DNA from: an uncultured Enterovibrio sp.
Lineage (GTDB): Bacteria; Pseudomonadota; Gammaproteobacteria; Enterobacterales; Vibrionaceae
Reading direction: 5' to 3'
Assembly (NCBI GenBank): GCA_947041315.1
Contig: CAMRDW010000012.1
Location: 1-34,529 of the forward strand
Length of the DNA stretch: 34,529 nucleotides
Part shown: positions 769 to 34,529 of the stretch, in pieces
Layout: the number at the start of each line of letters is the position of its first letter
Position numbering within the stretch: position 1 is the stretch's first letter
Translations under genes and position numbers: made by a program
The notes under the pieces: generated by a model
Told to the model about the DNA's origin: nothing
What the model saw: the letters and a program-made list of their open reading frames with translations, nothing else
Database searches by the model: none

Positions 769-3700
769 TTAAGAAAGAATCATATTTCGAATATAATCAT
801 CATGAAATGACCATTTTTTGATCGTCTCTTTAGATGAATGTCCTTTGTTTTCATAATATGCCGCTTTTTTAAAAAGCTTTGGTTCATAAATCGGTGTTTT
901 TATTTCGTACTGATAAATATGATCATCTTCTTGTCTTTCTTCATAAGAAATATCGTAAGAAACGATCACATTTTCTTCGTGGTAAAATTCTTTTATTTCA
1001 ATAGGAACATCATCAAAAGAAACAAATGGAACTAAAGTCTTCTTTATAAACTCTTTTGAATAATGATTCGAAATACCGACAGGAAATTTACTATGATGAC
1101 AAAATGTTTTAACAATATTTGCATTTAAATCTTCTTTTGTGCCTTCCCCTGACAGCATTGTAATTCTACTATCATCGCCCCAGTCATTCGTGCATTTCAT
1201 TTCTTGACCATTGAATTGCAAATAAATCAATCCATTTTTCTCAATAAATGATGTCATTACTTTTATTGCATTTTTTCCTGCAAAAATTTCTTGCTGAACA
1301 TCAACATGATGAAGATCTGATGTTGTTAAATCGAAATTCACTTGATAATCAAGACAAAGAAGGTTTTTATTATTTGAAATTGGTTTCGCTGTTAAAATAT
1401 CATTAACTAACGATTTACTAACATTAGAGCTCATATAATGAGAAGAGACAAAGACACGGCCAAGTTCATTTATTATTAAATTATTAGAAATAATGCTGAA
1501 CTCAGCATCTGCATCATAATAAATCAGAGCCACTTTTGAATCGTTCATTATTTTTGTTATTGTATTTGTTTCTTTATCAACCGCAACGCTTGTTTTTTTC
1601 CATTCCATTCCATCTTTTGATTCAAGAATAATAACTGAATCGGATTTAGAAGGATAATTCAACGTATACTTACTGTTATCTGATGCTTTAATATAGCGTG
1701 CTGAAATGCCATTTCTTAAAATGATGTTTATGTTTTCTAGATCTCCAATTATATCAATGCAAGGTATAACATTGAACGCGGTTGTATCATTTGTTGTTCT
1801 CACTGCGCGTATTTTTATTTTTTCCCCTTTTTTGAACTTCTCCTTTATTTCATTTATCTTTAAATCTCGTTCTCTTACATTAAAAAATATAAACTCTTCA
1901 TTATCTCTTTCAAAAAGAATATCTAAACCAAATTGATCGCACTCAGTATTATAAGTTTCAAGTAAAACTTTTTCATTTAAACTAGACAATTCATAAAACT
2001 CACATTTTCCAAATTTGTTTATTCCATTTTCTGGTAATATTTTTATTGCAATACTAGAATCAAGGTGAGTTTTAATTTTATCATCATAAAAAACTTCTTT
2101 TTCAATATCGAATGTTGTTGAAACAGAATGCCCAATACCTCGAATTTCATTTCGACTTAGTGCGTCCAATTGATATGTTTTATTTCCTTTTGCATCAAGA
2201 TAAAGTTCATGGATTAATCTGTCATAAATGACATCACAAAGAATATTATCTTCACGTCCTGAACTCTCACTATCAGAAGCAAATTTAAAGCAATCTTGCG
2301 TAGCAATATTTGAAGATGCTAATTCATACCATTTCTTTTCTATGTTATTTAATAAAAACAGTTTACACCCATTTTTATTTAAAACAGGGTGAGTTGCTCC
2401 TTCATTTAATCTCTGAATGAGAGCAAGAGGCATTGCGACACTTAAACGTTTGAGATTACCCGTTGCTTTATATATTGTGTGATCTTCTTTTTCATCTCCA
2501 GCGCTATAGAAAAAAGAATGCTCATTAAAATCTTTTGATATCGTTTTATTCTCTTGTCGTGCTATTCGTAATTCTTTACTTGACCATGTCATCGCATCAA
2601 CTTGATTGTTTTGTGCTGGCGTAACAATTGCGGGTGAATTATTCGGTCCAGGAATTATTCGACATCTAAATCTAAATTGTACTAATTCAGAACTTTCATC
2701 ATCAAAATAAATGTTGTTTTTAGGGTCATTTATAAAGCTTTGTATTTGTGTCTTTGTTAATTCAGATGCTCTTGCAAAATGTCCTTCTGTCTTTTTATCC
2801 CACGCCCCAAGCGCCGAATATCCTTGTGCGACTCCAAGTTCAGTTGATAAAGTCAGTTCAACATCATTCCATTTTGTTTTTTTAAAATTAACATCCCCAC
2901 GCGGAACAATAATATCTTTTTCAGACAATAACTCATACCAGGATTCTATAAAAACAAAATCACTACGTGATAAAACAACTGATTCAGTTGTTTTTTGCAA
3001 TGATATATTATTAACTATGAACTTATGATTCGATCCCAGACGCTCGAACATAATATTTCTCGCATTTACTATTGCGTTTGTTGTAAATGTATATCGTCCA
3101 TTTCCTTTTGCATCTGAATATATATATTGTGTATTGTCTCCTTGTATCACAACTCGAACAGAGCCACTCTCCCAATTTTTAATTGTAAATTCAACATTAA
3201 ATATTCCGCTTTCGTTAATGACTTGATTAAAAACAGTATATGAATTTACATCTTTATCAAAAATCAATCCCTCGCTTGTGATTTCACCACCATTTCTATT
3301 CCAGGATCCGTCATCACCAAGCCTTAGATCTCCATTTTTTAAAATGCCCTCAAAAGCTCTAGAAATAGCTTCATTTTTAGTTAGTGCCACAGGTTCATTT
3401 GGGTATTTTTTATTTCTAGAGACTGTATGATCAATTATTTTACGCGTATCTACGTTGTATGTCTTTGTTCCACACTCAGCATTTGGAAATTCTGTTTTAT
3501 ACAAATTCAAATATATTACGTTACCATCAATCAACATTGGCATTTCAATATCTTCTTGCAACAGCGTTGAAATATCCGTTTTTTTATCTTTATATAAATA
3601 TCCAGATCCTGCGTGATTCAATTTATGAATAGTTCTTTTTAAATCGAATTCTGCTTTCGTCATTGCGTATTGATACGAACGCATCAAAGCGTCAGAGACT

Positions 3701-3973: not shown

Positions 3974-4996
3974 TTAAATAATTTGTGTGATAATGCTTTG
4001 TGTTGTAATTAAATCTCTCGCAATGCTAATGATTGCAATCTGACTGCTCTTATATGAATTATCTGCACTTATTGCAGAATCATTTGCACTTTTTGCAGAC
4101 TCAAGAGATTCACTGTTTAATTCAGTTATATTTTCATATCTATTCAAAATATCGTCTATTTTTGGATTTGCTGAATCTAGTTTACTTTCAATTTCAAGTA
4201 TTTTTTCATGCTTTAGTGATACGTCTTTTCCTATTTCATCAATCTCACTTGCTGTTGATAAAACAATGTCTTTATTCTTTGATACAGTTTCGCTTTCAAC
4301 TAAAACAGCAGCTTTATTTTCTTTTACTTCTTCACTGTCAAAGTTAACTTGTTTAGACAATTCAATTGAATTTTTAAGGTCGTTTTTGGCTTGCTCTGTT
4401 GTTTCAGTCAAAAATTTATTATTTTCTGTGATAATAACTTCAACTCTTTCACATACAGATGCTGATGCTTGCGCTTTTGTCATGCTTAAAATTGATGTTT
4501 CTTTTGCATTAATCGCATCAAGAGATGAACTGTAAGCGGACTTTGATGAATTAGCCGCGCGATCTGCATGTTGACGTGATGCATCAGCATTGTCAGCAAC
4601 ACCTATTGCATTTTCTTCTGCTCTTTTTGCTGAATTTTCAGATAATTCAGCGTATTTTCTTGACTCTATAAGAGCTTCTTCAATTTGCTGATACCACACC
4701 GGACTCGGTTCTATTGCTGGTGCGTCAAGTAATGCTTGTAACGTTGATTCAGTCGAATCAGAAAAAACGCGAATGTCTCCGAGCTCTACTTTAGAAGCGG
4801 CATGATGCTCTAAAGTGACAGAGTAAATACCGGTTGGCACATTGAAGTCATAACGTCCTTTATAATCTGTTAATACGCTTGCTGTACTAGAAAAAAGAAC
4901 ATCAACTGATGTTTCTAATGCTGTTAGCATTATTTTCACACCGGCCATGGGGCAAAATGTCGGTGTTTTTAATTCACCGAATAATCGAATTGACAT
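3974..4996 (-). CDS. Tail fibre anchor with phage_tail_N-like domain
   Basis: Residues 1-100 resemble the N-terminal fibre domain of lambda Stf-type side tail fibres: a short GELK opening, an Ig-like beta domain with a GRYDFNVPTGIYSVTLEH core, then a helix with a WYQQIEEALI segment. The remaining 240 residues are heptad-like, Ala/Ser/Glu-rich coiled coil. It therefore most likely attaches the following 1064-residue fibre to the baseplate. The ATG at 4996 is preceded by GGAATTTTAAT. Both fibre genes would then assemble into one long fibre. Confidence 0.72.
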   Translation of the reverse strand: MSIRLFGELKTPTFCPMAGVKIMLTALETSVDVLFSSTASVLTDYKGRYDFNVPTGIYSVTLEHHAASKVELGDIRVFSDSTESTLQALLDAPAIEPSPVWYQQIEEALIESRKYAELSENSAKRAEENAIGVADNADASRQHADRAANSSKSAYSSSLDAINAKETSILSMTKAQASASVCERVEVIITENNKFLTETTEQAKNDLKNSIELSKQVNFDSEEVKENKAAVLVESETVSKNKDIVLSTASEIDEIGKDVSLKHEKILEIESKLDSANPKIDDILNRYENITELNSESLESAKSANDSAISADNSYKSSQIAIISIARDLITTQSIITQII

Positions 4997-19350: not shown

Positions 19351-21350
19351 CTATAGCGTCCCACAAATCCAGTTGACGATCGTCTTATCGCCGCTCTTTT
19401 TTTACGAACCGGTTTCCGAGTCTGTTTTTCGTTTGTTTCCTCTTTTAAATCATCTTCAATAACAAGAGTGTTGTTATTTTCATTACTTTCCACATGAACT
19501 GTATTGTTATTTTTTCTATCAAAACGCAGCATTCGAGCACACATATAATTCATGCCTTCGCAATCCAAAAAATGATTATCTTTTGATATTCTTAACCAAG
19601 CGCCTTTTTCTTCATTGAATTCTTCTGCAACAATTTGTTTGCAGTAATCTTCTGAAATATCAGACGGTAATAACCAATCTCCTTCTGTTCCGCGCTTCCA
19701 ATTAACGCGATTATGTACCCAAGATTTTGCTAAAGATGCGTCAAAATCCCAACGTCGATCTCCTTGCTTTCTAATTTTTCCGCGATGACTGACGTCAATA
19801 CGCGACATTTGAAATGGCTTTTTTAACTTTTGGAACCCCATCAGCACTCGAGCCCGCATTTTATGACGACGAACCCAAGCAAAAACTTCATCAGTTCTAT
19901 ATCCGCCATCGACACCGCACAATGTTATTGTTAACTCCCCCCAGGTTTGATTCATGAGTTCATCAAGTTCAAGCCAAACAGCAGGTTTATCCGTGTCACC
20001 CCAGATCTCATCGGCTTCGATGAGACGTGACGTCATACCATTCTTCCAGCCTCGCACAACATAAATGAGTCGGTTTTTTTGAACGTCAACCGTTGCAATT
20101 AATGAATGTATCCCAGAAGGAACTTCACCGGATTTATAATCGCTACGCAAAGAAAAGACGTCTTCCCAAGCCGGCGCATCACCGCTTTGACCATAAACTT
20201 CTCCGAATCCTGTGTTATATACTGTCAGAATTTTATTGGGATCCCCTGACAGCATCGCTTGAATCATTTTTTTCGCCAAAAAGCCATAAGATTTTTTTGA
20301 TGAAAATGAGCATAAGCCACTGACCCAGATTGAAAAATGCGTGTTTTTTTCAGAAGTATGTACAAACGAATGAAAAGGAACGACATGTTCTATTCCACTT
20401 TCATCGATGATGATCGCCCCTTGATCATCTTTCTGTTTTGCTGTTTGACCTGGTGCGAGCGCAAGACCTTTGGAGTTCATCAACTTTCTGAATCTGTCTT
20501 CAATTTGAGTTCCACATTGTGCACAAGTTAATCGTGCCTCTGTCACCGCTTTATTCGCGGAACATGCATCCTTTGTTCCTTTGTTCGGCCACCAAAGAAG
20601 TTCAGATCTGGGTATGAAATATTCAGAACAAAAAGGACACGGCACTGACCATTCGTGTCTTGTCCCTTGTTGCCACTGGATCCAAATTGGCGATGAAACT
20701 TTATTTTTGTCTGCGACAGACCAGTGCGTCATTCCAGAATCCGGATGCGTAAATGAAGAAACAATGCCGTGCGTGGGCGTTGATGTTAATCCAAGTTTTG
20801 AGTCTGTGTAAGCATCCCCCCGCGCTTCTGCTATTTCAGCTAAATCACCTTCTCCTGTGCTATTTTCTCCGGGTCTATCTAGCTCATCAACAAGCGTTAT
20901 GACTGCAGAATCAGAAGCGAGCTCAGTAGCAGATCCTGCCCATGCAAATCTTAATGACACCCCTGAAACTCTTTTTTTATGCTTTGTACTTTTCTTGTCA
21001 AACTTGCGCCATAAGCTTTTTGCTTCTGTGAACATTTCAACAATTTTGGGTTCAACAACATTGTTTATATTACTTTCGGTTGGACCGACATAAATGATCG
21101 GTGATGGCTCATCATCTAATCGCCAACCAATAATATTTTGCATTGTTGCAGATTTACCCATTTGCGTTCCCATGACAAAAGTGACCCGATTAAAAAGAGG
21201 ATCAGCGAAAGCCTGACAAACTGGGATCATATAAGGCGTTGATTTTGTATTAAAAGGCCCGGGAATTGGTGAACCAGCCGGCATGATCCTGTTACTGTTC
21301 GCCCAATCCGCCGCATGCCGAAGCTGTTGTGCATTCGTCATTCCGGCCAT
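19347..21350 (-). CDS. Terminase large subunit (lambda gpA-like)
   Basis: The packaging motor and endonuclease. The ATPase part shows FVMGTQMGKSATMQNIIGW (Walker A-like) at about residues 48-67 and ITLVDELDRPGE (Walker B-like). A zinc-finger-like set CPFC...CAQC follows. The nuclease half contains LIATVDVQKNRLIYVVRGW and CGVDGGYRTDEV, with Asp residues placed as in the GpA family, and LDCEGMNY near the end. Length is close to 670 residues. In-frame starts at 21368, 21350 and 21341 are all possible; none has a strong ribosome binding site, and the gene starts inside the small subunit gene. The tail after about residue 610 (ENNNTLVIEDD) is low-complexity. Confidence 0.9.
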   Translation of the reverse strand: MAGMTNAQQLRHAADWANSNRIMPAGSPIPGPFNTKSTPYMIPVCQAFADPLFNRVTFVMGTQMGKSATMQNIIGWRLDDEPSPIIYVGPTESNINNVVEPKIVEMFTEAKSLWRKFDKKSTKHKKRVSGVSLRFAWAGSATELASDSAVITLVDELDRPGENSTGEGDLAEIAEARGDAYTDSKLGLTSTPTHGIVSSFTHPDSGMTHWSVADKNKVSSPIWIQWQQGTRHEWSVPCPFCSEYFIPRSELLWWPNKGTKDACSANKAVTEARLTCAQCGTQIEDRFRKLMNSKGLALAPGQTAKQKDDQGAIIIDESGIEHVVPFHSFVHTSEKNTHFSIWVSGLCSFSSKKSYGFLAKKMIQAMLSGDPNKILTVYNTGFGEVYGQSGDAPAWEDVFSLRSDYKSGEVPSGIHSLIATVDVQKNRLIYVVRGWKNGMTSRLIEADEIWGDTDKPAVWLELDELMNQTWGELTITLCGVDGGYRTDEVFAWVRRHKMRARVLMGFQKLKKPFQMSRIDVSHRGKIRKQGDRRWDFDASLAKSWVHNRVNWKRGTEGDWLLPSDISEDYCKQIVAEEFNEEKGAWLRISKDNHFLDCEGMNYMCARMLRFDRKNNNTVHVESNENNNTLVIEDDLKEETNEKQTRKPVRKKRAAIRRSSTGFVGRYR

Positions 21351-28915: not shown

Positions 28916-29290
28916 ATGTATTTTAAAGAATTTGAAAAAGCAAAAATAGATCTCAAAAAGCTTTCAATCAAAGAATTAGAAGCTTTAGAGAAACAAATAC
29001 TCGATGACCCTGATAATTACACTCCTGGTAAAAAGCTCTGCGCTGGCGCTACAAGAGCTACTAATTGCATTAAAACAGCTATTGGTTTAACTGCTTATCT
29101 TGAAACGACTAAATGGCTGCGCAACTCTGAAAATTGCAATGAAAAACATATACAAAAACCAAAAGGAGGTAAGCGAGAGAACTCTGGTAGAAAGAAAAAA
29201 GAGCCAACGAGAATGGTTCGCTGTCCGATCAGCATTAAGAATGAAATACTTGCGCTCATCAAAAAATACAAAGAAACAGGTAAATTATGA
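28916..29290 (+). CDS. Probable DNA-binding protein with basic C-terminal segment
   Basis: 124 residues from the ATG at 28916 (the frame extends to a TTG at 28898 that lies in the operator). The N-terminus is helical (LKKLSIKELEALEKQILDD). The C-terminus has GGKRENSGRKKKEPT followed by MVRCPISIKNEILALIKKY, a motif found in phage and plasmid DNA-binding proteins with a GRP/GRK hook and a ribbon-helix-helix-like end. Family unknown. Confidence 0.5.
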   Translation: MYFKEFEKAKIDLKKLSIKELEALEKQILDDPDNYTPGKKLCAGATRATNCIKTAIGLTAYLETTKWLRNSENCNEKHIQKPKGGKRENSGRKKKEPTRMVRCPISIKNEILALIKKYKETGKL

Positions 29291-29426: not shown

Positions 29427-30164
29427 TTAAGACTGATCAAGAATTTGTAATATTTCGCCATTAAGACTGATTTTAGCTTTTACAAAATTTTTAACTACCC
29501 CGCCAAAAGCGTTCTTACCTCTATATACTGTTCTAACTAGAAGATAACTATCTTTATCCCAATAAAGCGTTTCATCATGCTGATAACTATCAGGATCATT
29601 CATTGCCTTTTTTATAAGAATTTCTAGATTAGAATGCGATCCGTCCCATGGACTAAATTGCTCTTTAATCCGTTTTTTCCTTTTCTCTTCTAGAAGTATC
29701 TTATCTTTTGACTCTTCAATGATCTTTAGTAGTTGCATATCACCTGAAACCAAATACTTACTATTATCATCAATTATGTGTTTGTAGTTTTTCATATTGA
29801 ATTCAGATTCAGCTTTTTTAATTATTCCTGTTCTATGCTCATTAAAATAATCAGTATTAATTTTTTCTACTTGAGCAATTCTGTCAATCTCAGCCTTAAT
29901 TTTAAGTTCCGACTCTTCGAATTTAGCTTCCTGGCCTACGAGAATAATGAATAAAAAACAGAAGACAAAAATAGATATTCCTCTTTTTGTTTTTGATAGT
30001 TCAACATTTGTCACTTTATGCGTCCAGTCCCTTACTGGCGGGCACAAAAGACAAAATATGATAATTAGCAGTAAACCTAAAACTGAATTAAACATAGATA
30101 TCAAGCCAATTAAGAGAAAAAAAACAGAACAAATCCAGGTAACAACGAGAGAGAAAAATTTCAT
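29427..30164 (-). CDS. Membrane protein with soluble C-terminal domain
   Basis: 245 residues from the Met at 30164 (MKFFSLVV). Hydrophobic segments at about 4-45 (two helices) and 65-80 are followed by a coiled coil (EESELKIKAEIDRIAQ) and a C-terminal domain with AMNDPDSYQHDETLYWD and TVYRGKNAFGGVVKNFVKAK. The latter pattern occurs in accessory membrane proteins of phages and plasmids; I know no proven role. Superinfection exclusion is possible. It is a single gene closed by the terminator at 29351. Confidence 0.6.
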   Translation of the reverse strand: MKFFSLVVTWICSVFFLLIGLISMFNSVLGLLLIIIFCLLCPPVRDWTHKVTNVELSKTKRGISIFVFCFLFIILVGQEAKFEESELKIKAEIDRIAQVEKINTDYFNEHRTGIIKKAESEFNMKNYKHIIDDNSKYLVSGDMQLLKIIEESKDKILLEEKRKKRIKEQFSPWDGSHSNLEILIKKAMNDPDSYQHDETLYWDKDSYLLVRTVYRGKNAFGGVVKNFVKAKISLNGEILQILDQS

Positions 30165-30479
30165 TTTACAACTTAAGCAACAGAGAAATTGAAAGCACAT
30201 AATATCATTAACGAAAGAATATCATTCTGATACAAGTGAAACAAAAATCAGTGCGTCAAATCACCATTATGTTCAATAGCAAATTTAATGTCCGCTTTTG
30301 GGTTCTTCGGAACAATTCATAAATGAACACGTCAAAAGCAACAAAAAGAAAGGAGGAAATCCTTTATTTTTCGTGTTACTTATTTGTGATCATTCGATGC
30401 TTTTTTGAGCGTCGGTTTTGTGATATTCATTTGAGCGCGTTTTTGCGCTGAAACCTGTAAAAGAGGAAAAGAGGAAAAA
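30165..30479. other. Intergenic region before a small gene
   Basis: It holds the divergent starts of the membrane protein and the 75-residue gene. Seen are a short hairpin AAAGGA / TCCTTT with a following T-rich stretch at about 30351-30373 and a small palindrome AGCGC / GCGCT at 30434-30449. No further gene is convincing. Confidence 0.4.
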
Positions 30480-30707
30480 ATGAAGAAATATACGATAAAT
30501 AATCGAACATATAATTTTAACGATCAAGTTTCGTGGAATGATATTGATCAAAGTGATTTCTATTTTCAAAGAGCGAGATTTTTTGGCTTATCAATGCCGC
30601 CAGCTTGTTTTGTCATGAACGAAGAGACAGTCAATGAACAAGAAGAATTATTGATCACTGCATATCACGAAAAATTCAAAATCGCTGAACAACAAACTCA
30701 CTGCTAA
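30480..30707 (+). CDS. Small protein, unknown
   Basis: 75 residues, acidic (QVSWNDIDQSDFYFQRARFFG), preceded by two GAGGA ribosome binding sites and followed by a terminator, so expression is likely. It has no motif I know. As a single short acidic accessory gene it is a candidate for an inhibitor of host defence, but this is only a guess from size and context. Confidence 0.5.
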   Translation: MKKYTINNRTYNFNDQVSWNDIDQSDFYFQRARFFGLSMPPACFVMNEETVNEQEELLITAYHEKFKIAEQQTHC

Positions 30708-30717
30708 TTTAAATTCG

Positions 30718-30748
30718 AGATCTGATTTAAAAGTCAGATCTTGATTTT
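30718..30748 (+). terminator. Terminator
   Basis: Perfect stem AGATCTGA / TCAGATCT (30718-30725, 30734-30741) followed by TTGATTTT on the plus strand. Confidence 0.75.
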
Positions 30749-30967
30749 CTCACTCCATGCCTGATTTTTTTAAATTTAACGTTTGAATTAAATTTAACTT
30801 AAATCGTCTCTGTGCTTGTTTCTAACGAAGTAAATGTCAATTTAGACAAAGAGATATCTCACAGCGTCAAAAAAGGCTTTAGATTTACGCTGAACGCTCA
30901 AAATGCACTGACACTTGCTAAGAATGCTCTTTGTTATTAGACGAAGAACTTTAAGGAGCTGTTTTGG

Positions 30968-31325
30968 GCAGGCTGCGCGCAGCCTTCTTGATCCTTTCTT
31001 TTTAGGCGCTGTGAGCTGGCGAACAAGAAGCCGCTTCATTATTAATAGATTTAAGATCTTTATTTTTACTTATTTATATTAATTGATATTAGATGCGCAA
31101 TAGAGAATAGAATTAATAAAACGGAGTTATTCATAAGAGTAGTTTCAAGAAAAAAAACACTAACATACATAAGTTATGCACATATAATACACAAATTGCG
31201 TATTTTAAGTGAAAAGTAAATAAAAAAAGGAGGATGCAAAAAAGAAGATGGTTATTTTTTGAGCGTTACTTTTATATAGTTACGAAAAAAACTCCAACAA
31301 AGGAGCATATTTAATTTTTATTTTG
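30968..31325. other. Candidate replication origin downstream of repA
   Basis: The 600 bp behind repA hold no convincing gene. They contain a perfect DnaA box TTATGCACA (31174-31182), a strongly AT-rich stretch (31040-31320), and a 16-bp palindrome AGGCTGCGCGCAGCCT (30968-30983). In IncFII-type plasmids the origin likewise lies just downstream of repA with a DnaA box. The exact extent is uncertain. Confidence 0.5.
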
Positions 31326-31982
31326 TCAGTACATTACTTTACTGCGCAATAACTCAAACCAAGCAGATCTTAATATCGACCGAACGCCTGGCGCGCCTCG
31401 AATTCCCGAAACCTCGAATGCAATCTTTCTAAGCATAGAAATGGGCATCAGCAAAAAACGAACGGGAAGACCCCAGGCTTTCGCTTTTTCAGCTATGTAT
31501 TCAATAGCAGACGCTCTTGCTTCAGACATCGCTTTTTCTAGATTCAGATCTGAAAAATATTGCTCAGTTACTTTTTTAACAGATGCAAGAGATTGCACAT
31601 TGCCTTTTTCGTCAGTATCCCTTGGTTGCACTGACGTGATCCAATTTCGATCAAAAGCAAATTTAGCGCATTGCTTAACACGCCATTCTGAAACTTTCAT
31701 TTTTTCTGCAATGTCTTTCCACGTCCTTAATAAGAAACCGATTTCTGTTTCTTTGCCGATATTACACGTAACAAAATTCATGTCAGAAACAAGAACATTC
31801 ATGAATGTTGAAATATCAAGCAGAAACGAGGCTCGAGTTGCAACGCCGCGATTATTGAGAGCGAAGTTAAATGAAGCAGGGGATTTTAATACAGCATTCC
31901 AATGCAGTCTATTCAACTTGCAAAGTGGGCGATTTTTTCGCTTTTGGGAACGATTAGATAGTGATTTATTATCGTTTTTCAC
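31326..31982 (-). CDS. repA: Plasmid-type replication initiator RepA
   Basis: 218 residues, basic. It has SLSNRSQKRKNRPLCKLNRLHWNAVL at the N-terminus, a winged-helix segment TWKDIAEKMKVSEWRVKQCAKFAFDRNWI (about 90-120), and helical C-terminal parts; I judge it a plasmid Rep protein of the IncFII-like group from this pattern and its surroundings. The start is a GTG at 31982 with GGAG six bases ahead. The DnaA box and AT-rich stretch directly downstream fit cis-acting initiation. No other replication gene is present in the window. Confidence 0.55.
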   Translation of the reverse strand: MKNDNKSLSNRSQKRKNRPLCKLNRLHWNAVLKSPASFNFALNNRGVATRASFLLDISTFMNVLVSDMNFVTCNIGKETEIGFLLRTWKDIAEKMKVSEWRVKQCAKFAFDRNWITSVQPRDTDEKGNVQSLASVKKVTEQYFSDLNLEKAMSEARASAIEYIAEKAKAWGLPVRFLLMPISMLRKIAFEVSGIRGAPGVRSILRSAWFELLRSKVMY

Positions 31983-31988
31983 TGTTCA

Positions 31989-32015
31989 CTCCATTAAATC
32001 GATGGGATTTAATGG
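31989..32015 (-). promoter_or_regulatory. Hairpin covering the repA ribosome binding site
   Basis: CCATTAAAT and ATTTAATGG form a perfect 9-bp stem (31991-31999, 32007-32015) with a seven-base loop. In the minus-strand mRNA the last GG of the stem is the start of the GGAG site of repA (31992-31989). A tiny ATG-GAG-TGA frame overlaps it. Translation of repA should depend on opening this stem. Confidence 0.55.
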
Positions 32016-32132
32016 AAAAAAAAATGATGATTTTTAAAGTATTCATTTTTGATTCTCATGCGATTTCAGAATTCCACTTCTGAATAAGACATCAACTTAA
32101 CATGAAAAAATAAAAAGATCAAAAAAGGATCA

Positions 32133-32166
32133 CAAAAAAGCCGCACCCTGAGAATGAAAGTGCGGC
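32133..32166 (-). terminator. Attenuator-like terminator in the repA leader
   Basis: GCCGCAC (32140-32146) and GTGCGGC (32160-32166) form a perfect stem, followed on the minus strand by six T. It stands 150 bp before repA and in the same direction, so it could end a control RNA or attenuate repA. Confidence 0.65.
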
Positions 32167-32744
32167 CCCGTTGCGAGCGCTATATAGTCAAGTTGGAAGC
32201 TTAACACGCTCTAATTCTAATGTAACAGGAGTTACACTAAAAAATGTAACATATTTCACTGCAAATATTAGAACAAATGTCAAATAAAAACAATGCAAAT
32301 CAATGAAATAATTTACTTGCTGATGTGTGAAATAAATGATCTAATTAGCTCGAGTTTTAAATCCCCTGGACAGGTTTTTAATAAACTCACAAAAATTCAC
32401 GATGTTCAAAAATGAACGTCGGGTTTTTTTGTATCTAAAATTCGCTAAATTTAAGATTTTGAGACTATACATTAATTTCAAAAAAAACGAAATATAAAAA
32501 GTGATCACTTTTATGTTAGTGCAAGACAATAGAAAGCAAAGAAATACAAAGATAAGCATATGATTAATGGAGGTTATTTGTTTTTTTGCTTTCATATGCA
32601 TCATGTTTACACCGCGCTTGCACTCTGTAAATTTCACATGATTTCACACTTCTGCATAAAATAGATGCACAGTCTTTGATTTTAGATATGAATTTTCTTT
32701 TTATAAAAAAAAACAAACAAGGTTACGTTTGTTAACAAAGTAAG
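32167..32744. other. AT-rich intergenic region upstream of repA
   Basis: Contains three TGTAAC/GTTACA half sites (32221-32250), two of which form a TGTAAC-AGGA-GTTACA palindrome, and before the next gene an inverted repeat AACAAAC (32712-32718) with GTTTGTT (32727-32733). Copy-control RNA or Rep operators may lie here. A minus-strand frame at 32341-32637 is not convincing as a gene. Confidence 0.4.
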
Positions 32745-32957
32745 ATGCATATGAAAACCAGACAAGGCACAAATCCTCTAATTTCATTTGATAACTCAGA
32801 AACTCTTGATTCAATTATATGCTATTCAGAACATATTCTTGAATCACTGGAAAGTGACAAAGAAAAACGCGGGTTGCTAATTTCAACACAACTGATTCTT
32901 GAAGCGTTACTTCATATGAAAACAAACTCACAAAACGCAGAAAGTAACGCTACGTGA
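32745..32957 (+). CDS. Small helical protein, unknown
   Basis: 70 residues (or 68 from a second ATG at 32751). Mostly helical and acidic: DNSETLDSIICYSEHILESLESD, then GLLISTQLILEALLHMK. No family recognised. The inverted repeat AACAAAC/GTTTGTT just upstream may be its operator. It is the first of two small plus-strand genes on the way to the CRISPR region. Confidence 0.45.
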   Translation: MHMKTRQGTNPLISFDNSETLDSIICYSEHILESLESDKEKRGLLISTQLILEALLHMKTNSQNAESNAT

Positions 32958-33035
32958 AAAATTGTCTTTCAATTTTAATTTCAGCATCAGATTTTAAAAT
33001 ATCGAGGCTAGGTACGGAATGACGGATAAAAAGAA

Positions 33036-33245
33036 ATGATCGAACTAAACGAAGAAACAAAATGGATCTTAGGTAGACCGCTTTTCGAATGTGGACCTTA
33101 CGCGCAAAGGTTGCGAGAACTCGGGCATGACATTAATTTCAAAGCAGAAGATGAACAAGCACATGTTATTCATTTCTTTCTGTCTAAATATGAAGAGCAT
33201 GGTGAAAACTGGCGCTCGTATGCAAGTAGCTATCTGAGAAGCTAA
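33036..33245 (+). CDS. Small conserved-looking accessory protein
   Basis: 69 residues: LNEETKWILGRPLFECGPYAQRLRELG, then FKAEDEQAHVIHFFLSKYEEHGENW. The ELxxETKxILGRP...EQAxxIHxxLxxYxxHGxxW pattern resembles small proteins I associate with accessory regions of Vibrionaceae and Aeromonas, without known function. It is closed by the strong terminator at 33264-33295. Position beside a lone CRISPR repeat makes it a candidate anti-defence gene. Confidence 0.5.
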   Translation: MIELNEETKWILGRPLFECGPYAQRLRELGHDINFKAEDEQAHVIHFFLSKYEEHGENWRSYASSYLRS

Positions 33246-33263
33246 GATCCCATTATTTTTTTA

Positions 33264-33295
33264 TAAAAAAAACCGCCGATAAGGCGGTTCTTTTT
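33264..33295. terminator. Bidirectional terminator joined to the lone CRISPR repeat
   Basis: Stem AACCGCC / GGCGGTT (33271-33277, 33283-33289). On the minus strand seven T follow at once; on the plus strand CTTTTT follows and overlaps the repeat. It serves the small gene from the left and ends any minus-strand RNA carrying the lone repeat. Confidence 0.85.
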
Positions 33296-33318
33296 AAGCT
33301 GCCTATGTGGCAGTGAAG
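33291..33318 (-). repeat. Solitary type I-F-like CRISPR repeat (candidate RNA anti-CRISPR)
   Basis: 28 bases match the array repeat at 22 positions and keep the I-F hairpin. Two of the differences are paired (CCGCC-GGCGG in the array becomes CTGCC-GGCAG here), so the stem is preserved by compensation. No second repeat is within 300 bp. One base after its 3' end (minus strand) the terminator starts, so a short RNA of repeat plus terminator hairpin would result. A weak promoter ATGACA-17-TCTTAA is upstream. This is the layout of solitary repeat units that act as Racr RNAs by capturing Cas6f and Cas7f; that function is inferred. Confidence 0.65.
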
Positions 33319-33547
33319 TTAAGACCCTAGCTCAAAATTATTGTCATTACAACCCCTTTTTTGCTCGCGTGACAAGCTGCTGCTGATGACCAAGATGATC
33401 GAAAAATTTTTATTTCACGCGAGTGTGACTCGTTTGTTTGTGACAAGGTCCAGGAAGGACCCAGTCATAAATCTCACATATGCGCATATAAAAGAATAAG
33501 CATTAACGCATATATAAGCCACCAAATAGGATTAAGGGACAACATCA
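33319..33547. other. Region between lone repeat and array
   Basis: No gene on either strand. Seen are a 9-bp inverted repeat, CTCGCGTGA near 33363 and TCACGCGAG near 33416, a small hairpin GGTCC-AGGAA-GGACC near 33449, and two CGCATATA boxes (about 33484 and 33508) in an AT-rich promoter-like stretch before the next start codon. Confidence 0.4.
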
Positions 33548-33663
33548 ATGGTGACAAAGGATGAAGACGATTTTAGTGGCTCAAAACTTTATATGTAGAA
33601 ACGGATAATTTGAAACGTGTTTTCGAAGATTTTGAAGGAAAAACAAAAAAAGAGACCGCATAA
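33548..33663 (+). pseudogene. Possible frame-broken small gene
   Basis: ATG at 33548 has AAGGGA eight bases ahead. The frame reads MVTKDEDDFSGSKLYM and stops at 33598. In another frame, without interruption from the same place, YVETDNLKRVFEDFEGKTKKETA follows to a stop at 33663. A small indel near 33590 would join both into a 38-residue protein. Whether this is a sequencing error, decay or just a short leader is open. Confidence 0.3.
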
Positions 33664-33695
33664 ATTGAAACATATTTTTTTGTTTAAATAGCATT

Positions 33696-34201
33696 TAAAC
33701 CCAATAACTACGTGGCGGTGAACGAAAGCCCCTAAAAGGGGCGAACGGTTAAATTTCTAAGCCGCCTGCGTGGCGGTGAACCATGAACGTGGGCTGTGAG
33801 CGTAAACGTAATTTTTCTAAGCCGCCTGCGTGGCGGTGAACTACCTCACCGACTACACAGCTAACTTTTGAAATTTCTAAGCCGCCTGCGTGGCGGTGAA
33901 CGAAGGTGATCATCATATCAGGGTGGCCATGGTTTTCTAAGCCGCCTGCGTGGCGGTGAACATCAATCTATGAGGCAAATAACACAGTTTTTTTTTCTAA
34001 GCCGCCTGCGTGGCGGTGAACCAAGCTGCAATAAGCGGGATCCCCCAGGGAGATTTCTAAGCCGCCTGCGTGGCGGTGAACTGCCGCGCGCGATTGCCAT
34101 CTCTGGCTGTAAATTTCTAAGCCGCCTGCGTGGCGGTGAACATTGGTCGGCGTTTTTGATAGTGTTCATTATTTTTCTAAGCCGCCTGCGTGGCGGTGAA
34201 C
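33696..34201 (-). CRISPR. Orphan type I-F CRISPR array, 8 spacers
   Basis: Eight identical 28-bp repeats start at 33754 and every 60 bp to 34174; spacers are 32 bp. A ninth, decayed repeat (33696-33723) keeps only the half next to the spacer (CGTGGCGGTGAAC) and is followed by a 30-bp spacer. On the minus strand the repeat begins GTTCACCGCC and ends GGCGGCTTAGAAA, the I-F form, so transcription runs right to left with the leader at 34202-34383 and the decayed repeat at the trailer. The trailer spacer holds a perfect GCCCC-TAAAA-GGGGC hairpin. No cas gene lies in the window; Cas6f and Cascade would come from the host. Confidence 0.93.
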
Positions 34202-34383
34202 TATAAATTCTGAAGCAAAAAGCCGCTAATAGCAAGGGATGCCCCCTTAAAACCTTCTTTTCACCTTGTAAAAAACAGGACCTCATAAGCGATTGTTTAT
34301 TAAGGGAATTATTTTCAATCAAAATAAGAAGGTCTAAACAAGGGTAAAAATAAACATTGTGGATTTTCAGATAGGGAGAAATC
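34202..34383 (-). promoter_or_regulatory. Presumed CRISPR leader
   Basis: The 180 bp flanking the intact end of the array are AT-rich and contain no credible gene. By repeat orientation the array promoter should lie here, read on the minus strand. I cannot point to a secure promoter or IHF site. Confidence 0.5.
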
Positions 34384-34457
34384 GTCTTAAGACACTATGT
34401 GACGGTGAATCCTCATTTGAGGTTTAAATAAAGGAAATTTTTTCTAATCTACCTACG
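34384..34457 (-). repeat. Decayed repeat-spacer-repeat remnant
   Basis: 34384-34410 matches the repeat with one deletion, keeping TGACGGTGAA at the spacer end. After 30 bases, 34441-34457 repeats the other half: TTTCTAATCTACCTACG, 13 of 17 bases matching. The 57-bp step fits the array period. It is a remnant of an older array, or the edge of another one beyond the window. Confidence 0.5.
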
Positions 34458-34529
34458 AAAATAAACCGCATAAAATGAGAATTGATCTTTTCCCAAATTA
34501 TACGGCGGCATTTCCCATTCCAACCACCC

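Follow-up and report, generated by a model that had tools for sequence, protein, structure and literature searches.

The window analysed here, 34,529 nucleotides long, is the whole of contig C12 of an Enterovibrio draft genome (G000; 3.69 Mb, 325 contigs). It carries genes for a terminase, portal, major head, sheath, tail, integrase and CI-like repressor, and from this gene content we identify the contig as a myovirus prophage; no phage DNA resembling positions 30000–34529 was found. The minus strand holds the window's main type I-F array, eight identical repeats with a 60-nt period (33754–34201), which ends in a degenerate last repeat that a sequence check found to have lost its 3′ stem (33696–33723). 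The array's last spacer (33725–33753) contains a weak terminator-like hairpin, GCCCCTTTTAGGGGC, and the last spacer of another array of this genome, on contig C29, contains a terminator-like hairpin as well (ACCGCCTTCACGGGCGGT-T7; L018, 5600–5659). Upstream of the leader of the main array, also on the minus strand, lie two I-F-like repeats, both degenerate and spaced by about 60 nt (34384–34411 and approximately 34438–34465). The same pair is present in the prophage on contig C9 (L016, approximately 4370–4450) and is possibly an old or regulatory mini-array.

On the same strand as the main array, and about 435 nt downstream of its last intact repeat, positions 33291–33318 hold a further type I-F repeat, the 28-mer CTTCACTGCCACATAGGCAGCTTAAAAA. 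As an earlier note on this DNA had claimed, it is identical to the nearby array repeat at 22 of 28 positions (differences at positions 1, 7, 13, 14, 19 and 25). This similarity is above chance, as the highest count in 100 mononucleotide shuffles was 19 and the second-best site outside the array gave 17, and the Rfam model CRISPR-DR4 matched the lone repeat with 38.1 bits (cut-off 35, E = 2.2e-5); the eight array repeats of the window also scored above the curated cut-off. The Cas6f-type hairpin with C6-G20 is present, and all five pairs of the stem (C6–C10/G16–G20) are kept. The note had further described paired changes that preserve the hairpin; the stem is indeed intact, but just one pair is altered, on both sides (C7-G19 to U7-A19), and the remaining changes fall in the loop, the first base and the 8-nt handle, where G25 is replaced by A (G25A). 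We compared the lone repeat with known repeats by blastn-short, which gave one match of 46.1 bits over 23 of 28 nt and two others of 40.1 bits over 24 nt. This coverage falls under that demanded by SRUFinder, whose minimum values are 90% identity, 90% coverage of a known repeat and a bit score of 41.1. The ungapped match to array repeats is 26/28. An exact copy of the repeat was not found in the viral sequences searched.

A single base (G, 33290) separates the repeat from the hairpin AACCGCC-TTATC-GGCGGTT-TTTTTT (33289–33265). Together with its flanking bases this hairpin makes a near-symmetrical intrinsic terminator on both strands (33264–33289), with a U-run on the minus strand and a shorter T-run on the plus strand. 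A simple terminator scan reported it solely as a plus-strand terminator; the minus-strand terminator one base past the repeat, which the note had proposed, was confirmed by the sequence and by folding of the minus-strand RNA, which formed the repeat hairpin and the terminator hairpin (−26.6 kcal/mol, z = −4.65). Judged from its sequence, the structure can act in both directions and may also serve a convergent 69-aa open reading frame on the plus strand (33036–33245). The product of this frame shares 44% identity with hypothetical proteins of phages PMG1 and BgManors32; searches of Pfam, NCBIfam, PHROG and PADLOC gave no match for it at the thresholds applied. The repeat-terminator unit (33264–33318) is covered by no open reading frame of at least 20 aa and is thus intergenic. 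Searching ten small or uncharacterized reading frames for known Acr, Aca and defence proteins gave nothing above the curated Pfam and NCBIfam cut-offs and one weak PADLOC match. Just upstream of the convergent frame, positions 32940–33033 contain an 80–95-nt MITE-like element that recurs at roughly 77–91% identity in dozens of sites of G000 and of the sister genome G014.

A matrix scan of the minus strand marked a −35-like hexamer, TTGTCA (33370–33375), and a −10-like hexamer, TGTAAT (33346–33351), each matching at five of six positions, with an 18-nt spacer between them and the −10-like hexamer ending 27 nt upstream of the repeat. The site is judged promoter-like from sequence only. Its score was equalled at 1.75% of 400 random window positions and, in a repeated test, at 1.7% of 300; a separate promoter scan that demanded A at the second −10 position, here G, missed it. 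When the same matrix was applied to 17 other repeat units, two of them (L230 and L397) scored within about 2.5% and the other 15, including the L191 family described below, did not. Taking a start 7 nt after the −10 hexamer, the promoter scan and the folding together predict a small RNA of about 76 nt (33264–33339, minus strand). Because the promoter-like site lies close upstream of the repeat, just beyond the block shared with the sister array on C9, the promoter-like site, repeat and terminator apparently form a compact unit.

This shared block is the 3′ flank of the main array (33377–33723, minus strand), which is 96% identical to C9:2583–2918 of the same genome. The identity ends at 33377, two bases before the promoter-like site and beside the lone unit, and past the shared flank C9 has a different intrinsic terminator, without a repeat. 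Since the identity stops at this point and C9 has no repeat beyond it, promoter-like site, repeat and terminator constitute a window-specific segment; positions 33376–33291 had no match in G014 and, in G000, matched only themselves. At the edge of the unit, positions 33378–33409 correspond to C9:2584–2615, a site to which a G014 spacer is an exact match, with a CC PAM. In the window the corresponding site differs from the spacer at three positions and lacks the CC, as an escape variant might.

We then asked how solitary the repeat is. Within 150 nt on either side, the best second repeat reached 13/28 against three reference repeats, no more than shuffles did, and the nearest further repeat-like sequence is the degenerate array end about 380 nt away. 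The lone repeat is therefore solitary in the sense used for RNA anti-CRISPRs (Racr), with no other repeat within 100 bp, and is not preceded by repeats at a spacing of about 60 nt, as the terminal repeat of an array would be. A candidate for a hidden second repeat upstream, with the hairpin GCTTG-TCACG-CGAGC, was rejected, its similarity being at chance level. Across the genome, only two of the matches over the Rfam cut-off lacked neighbours, namely the lone repeat and one located where contig C220 terminates (best 150 of 1034 candidates scored).

The earlier note had taken independent drift of the stem as a sign of selection on RNA structure. That argument fails: the lone repeat is closest, at 26/28 ungapped, to array repeats of other species and not to the adjacent array, and that it descends from the adjacent array is no more than an assumption. 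Among the seven repeat types of the genus, just one stem pair varies; pair 7-19 is C-G, U-A, G-C or G-U, and the other four pairs, including C6-G20, are constant. All 35 of the 35 cells pair, as they also do in 6 of 500 shuffles, and two of five covariation measures were not above shuffles (352 of 500 for double-change pairs and 115 of 500 for further pair types). G000 has both arrays with C-G and arrays with G-C at pair 7-19, so the host Cas6f may also accept the U-A of the lone repeat.

Outside the window, G000 carries I-F arrays on contigs C9, C29 and C151, besides the isolated repeat at the C220 end. Contigs C172 and C174 each contain an operon of cas3f, csy1, csy2 and csy3, so the host has the matching CRISPR subtype. 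Both operons run into a frame starting MNYYQEITLLPD at the place expected for cas6f, and both contigs end 12 codons into it; at their other ends, C172 and C174 start in a frame that resembles, by eye, the C-terminal end of the Cas1-position protein of genome G013. Two models gave no match for cas6f (csy4) in G000, so that only its 12-codon start was found and not a full gene, and one model gave no match for Cas1; both genes were presumably lost at assembly breaks. Between the end of cas1 and cas3f on C172 (L160, 143–209, minus strand) we noted two degenerate repeats around a short pseudo-spacer, with a similar pair in G014 (L162, contig C168). These pairs resemble CreR-like RNAs, which regulate cas genes.

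To look for self-targeting, we took 109 spacers from G000 and G014, which together have at least 12 repeat-bearing loci (one a single repeat with no spacer), and compared them with the window, leaving out matches of the window array to itself. The type I-F consensus PAM is GG on the target strand (PMC3630108), and we therefore expected 5′-CC at protospacers in the window. The spacers gave 10 alignments of at least 18 nt, compared with 0 to 3 per round in 20 rounds of shuffled spacers. The third spacer from the leader of the G000 array on C29 matches positions 29154–29185 (minus strand) at 32/32 with 5′-CC, and a spacer of the G014 array on C55 matches positions 19700–19731, again at 32/32 with 5′-CC. 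The other matches were 30/32 with CC, 29/32 without CC, 23/32 with CC (first 20 nt exact) and five weak ones. Self-targeting spacers serve as indicators of anti-CRISPRs (PMC6990116), and an exact self-match in a genome that has I-F genes often hints at one, without indicating which gene is responsible; the tolerance could also be due to an Acr protein, to cas genes that are silent, or to a draft assembly that mixes contigs of different cells. As a separate observation, G000 arrays of different repeat types (C9 and C151; C12 and C29) have near-identical or overlapping spacers (30/32; 17-nt overlap), which suggests parallel acquisition from the same targets.

The earlier note had proposed a search for the same unit in related phages. 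No homologous promoter-repeat-terminator unit was found in 17 other genomes of the genus in an initial scan that covered 29 of 96 candidates in G014, nor in a re-search of G014 in which all 7 candidates were scored. Comparable repeat-terminator forms do exist, both at array ends and in viral contigs. In the G014 array on C189, G25A is found in the last clear repeat (CGTAAAAA), which is immediately followed by GGGGCCTTCCGGCCCC-T7, and the array on contig C79 of G011 likewise ends in a repeat and terminator, without the same handle. Among 48 printed array ends, some duplicated and some fragments, a repeat-terminator junction was seen by eye in a minority of three, two of which are the same locus. 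The G25A pattern had 19 matches in 329 genomes of the family, of which 12 were I-F-like; 11 of these have neighbouring repeats and are, by eye, mostly last repeats, leaving the window unit as the sole solitary case.

Viral repeat-terminator units occurred as solitary (L230), paired (L191, L200, L269, L460) and array-end forms (L119, L217). The solitary L230 has a promoter-like TTGATT-17-TATGAT and the handle CTTAAACA, which places it in neither the A25 nor the G25 class. L191, L200, L269 and L460 belong to one phage family, in which a divergent second repeat precedes the unit by about 37 nt and promoter scores do not stand out. On contig L119, an array ends in a repeat and terminator, and 4.3 kb from it lies a single repeat whose hairpin is nearly identical and whose upstream sequence is similar, without the T-run. 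A first look at 40 viral stretches gave 13 solitary repeats, none with a terminator within 60 nt by a rule that misses some real cases. In samples with duplicates dropped, and among the matches listed, an abutting terminator followed 3 of 6 solitary viral I-F-like repeats with A25 and 1 of 33 with G25, 0 of 3 (A25) and 0 of 261 (G25) within viral arrays, and 0 of 27 and 0 of 11 in unlike controls. The four positive solitary cases (L200, L269 and L460; L191) come from the single phage family with the second repeat, and four other solitary cases (L201, L477, L512 and L528) lie inside reading frames of at least 150 codons. We therefore do not take fusion to a terminator as a mark of solitary phage repeats, as the positives represent one family whose unit has two repeats.

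The best single explanation for the lone unit, to which we give a probability of about 0.5, is that it encodes a decoy RNA of the Racr type, as the promoter-like site, intact stem, solitude and self-targeted prophage all point one way. From these features we infer transcription of the unit, binding and cutting of its RNA by Cas6f, and an anti-CRISPR effect. Host Cas6f would bind this RNA of about 76 nt and probably cut it 3′ of G20, giving a 5′ piece of about 40 nt that ends in the Cas6f hairpin. With Cas6f, and perhaps a few Cas7f subunits, tied up on this piece, less functional Cascade would form, and the prophage could thereby persist in a cell whose own array matches it. The earlier note had also read the element as a Racr against the host type I-F system; that reading gains from the promoter-like site, the prophage, the cas genes and the 32/32 self-target with its PAM, and loses the stem-drift argument. 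Against it stand the moderate promoter match, with G at the second −10 position, and the finding that array 3′ ends, too, show G25A and a repeat with a terminator.

Those same features make the main rival possible, if doubtful: that the unit is the relic of an array 3′ end, a terminal repeat and terminator that lost leader and spacers and now serves only as a terminator. The arrays of G014:C189, with its G25A repeat, and G011:C79 end in just this way, 11 of the 12 I-F-like G25A repeats of the family have neighbouring repeats, and L119 pairs such an array end with a lone repeat 4.3 kb off. However, the adjacent array is of another repeat type and has its own degenerate end, and a relic accounts less readily for an intact stem, a promoter-like site just upstream and a second repeat that is undetectable within 150 nt. 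G25A does not separate these explanations, because family genomes carry it mostly at array ends. An array with zero spacers and a purpose-made decoy fit these repeat-terminator facts equally well, and a relic could since have turned decoy. The note's own alternative, that the element is the far end of the array transcript, is stronger than was stated in that array 3′ ends do carry terminators and G25A. For this array it would require read-through over the shared 340-nt flank, with Cas6f cutting at the lone repeat before the terminator, and the shared strand, the distance of about 435 nt and the intrinsic terminator that follows the same flank in C9 all fit. We nevertheless consider it improbable: the C9 terminator is without a repeat, the array has its own degenerate end and already has a weak terminator-like hairpin in its last spacer, and the lone repeat is of a different flavour.

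The hairpin could also be an ordinary bidirectional terminator for the convergent frame at 33036–33245 that happens to lie beside a functionless repeat, and similar terminators without a repeat are present at G000:C23 and G014:C30. We think this very improbable, given that the repeat is 26/28 identical to real repeats and keeps every stem pair. A regulatory mini-array of the CreR/CreA type consists of two degenerate repeats around a pseudo-spacer, here followed by a terminator, and two-repeat units with an abutting or nearby terminator do occur on mobile elements (the L191/L200/L269/L460 family and the Acinetobacter plasmid L397). Since the 150 nt on each side of the window unit contain no further repeat above chance level, it lacks the two-repeat form, and we find this explanation barely credible. 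The matches listed in our literature search included no dedicated CreR paper.

The decoy reading agrees in several respects with RacrIF1 and the other solitary-repeat RNA anti-CRISPRs, which likewise consist of one intergenic I-F repeat in a prophage, with a promoter-like site upstream, a C6-G20 stem and I-F cas genes in the host (PMC10651486). That report counts 2,103 viral solitary repeat units, and describes RacrIF1 products of 70–76 nt that associate with Cas6f and with Cas7f, the latter estimated at eight or nine copies. The 5′ piece predicted here is about 40 nt, compared with 70–76 nt in RacrIF1 (PMC10651486), so a smaller complex or capture of Cas6f alone would be expected. The lone unit differs further in that a full array lies about 435 nt away, that its terminator abuts the repeat, the word "terminator" being absent from the main text of that report (PMC10651486), and that its decoy activity is a prediction from sequence. 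Among the titles and opening abstracts listed in the open literature searched, none concerned solitary I-F repeats fused to a terminator; in type II systems, scaRNAs are flanked by a start site and a terminator (PMC6199352). The array 3′ ends of G014:C189, G011:C79, L119 and L217 resemble the lone unit in that the terminator follows the repeat at once, and C189 also shares its G25A handle, but repeats and spacers precede them, which the lone unit lacks. The viral units L230 and L191/L200/L269/L460 share the fusion of repeat and terminator, L230 together with a promoter-like site; unlike the lone unit, the L191 family has the second repeat upstream and L230 a different handle.

The kind of element is already known; the novelty lies in this candidate, in the fusion to its terminator and in its natural setting of self-targeting. 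If the decoy reading is true, a candidate RNA anti-CRISPR against type I-F lies in a prophage that the CRISPR memory of the same genome matches perfectly, and there is a natural need for it. As the prophage carries its own array too, the same Cas proteins may be both used and blocked from within one small region. The fusion of repeat and terminator, which recurs in several phage contigs and where arrays end, suggests a route by which decoys could arise and offers a search handle for units that filters on whole-repeat coverage may miss. We can also imagine, although we think it unlikely as a whole, that phage arrays and RNA anti-CRISPRs interconvert. A terminal repeat-terminator would then be an array remnant or a pre-spacer state, the addition of a promoter would make it a minimal decoy, G25A, which merges the A-tract with the terminator, would be its signature, and the prophage would use such a unit to survive a self-targeting spacer.

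Other small repeat loci came to light in these searches. In G012 (Ca. Enterovibrio escacola), three loci (L067, L075 and L081), one of them on a plasmid record, have an array-type leader followed by a single repeat, and L081 lies near a csy3 with internal stops. On the Acinetobacter plasmid NZ_CP113937.1 (L397, approximately 2940–3064), two I-F-like repeats flank a 25-nt spacer and are followed by a terminator; by eye, the spacer resembles the element's own upstream region, and the locus looks self-regulatory.
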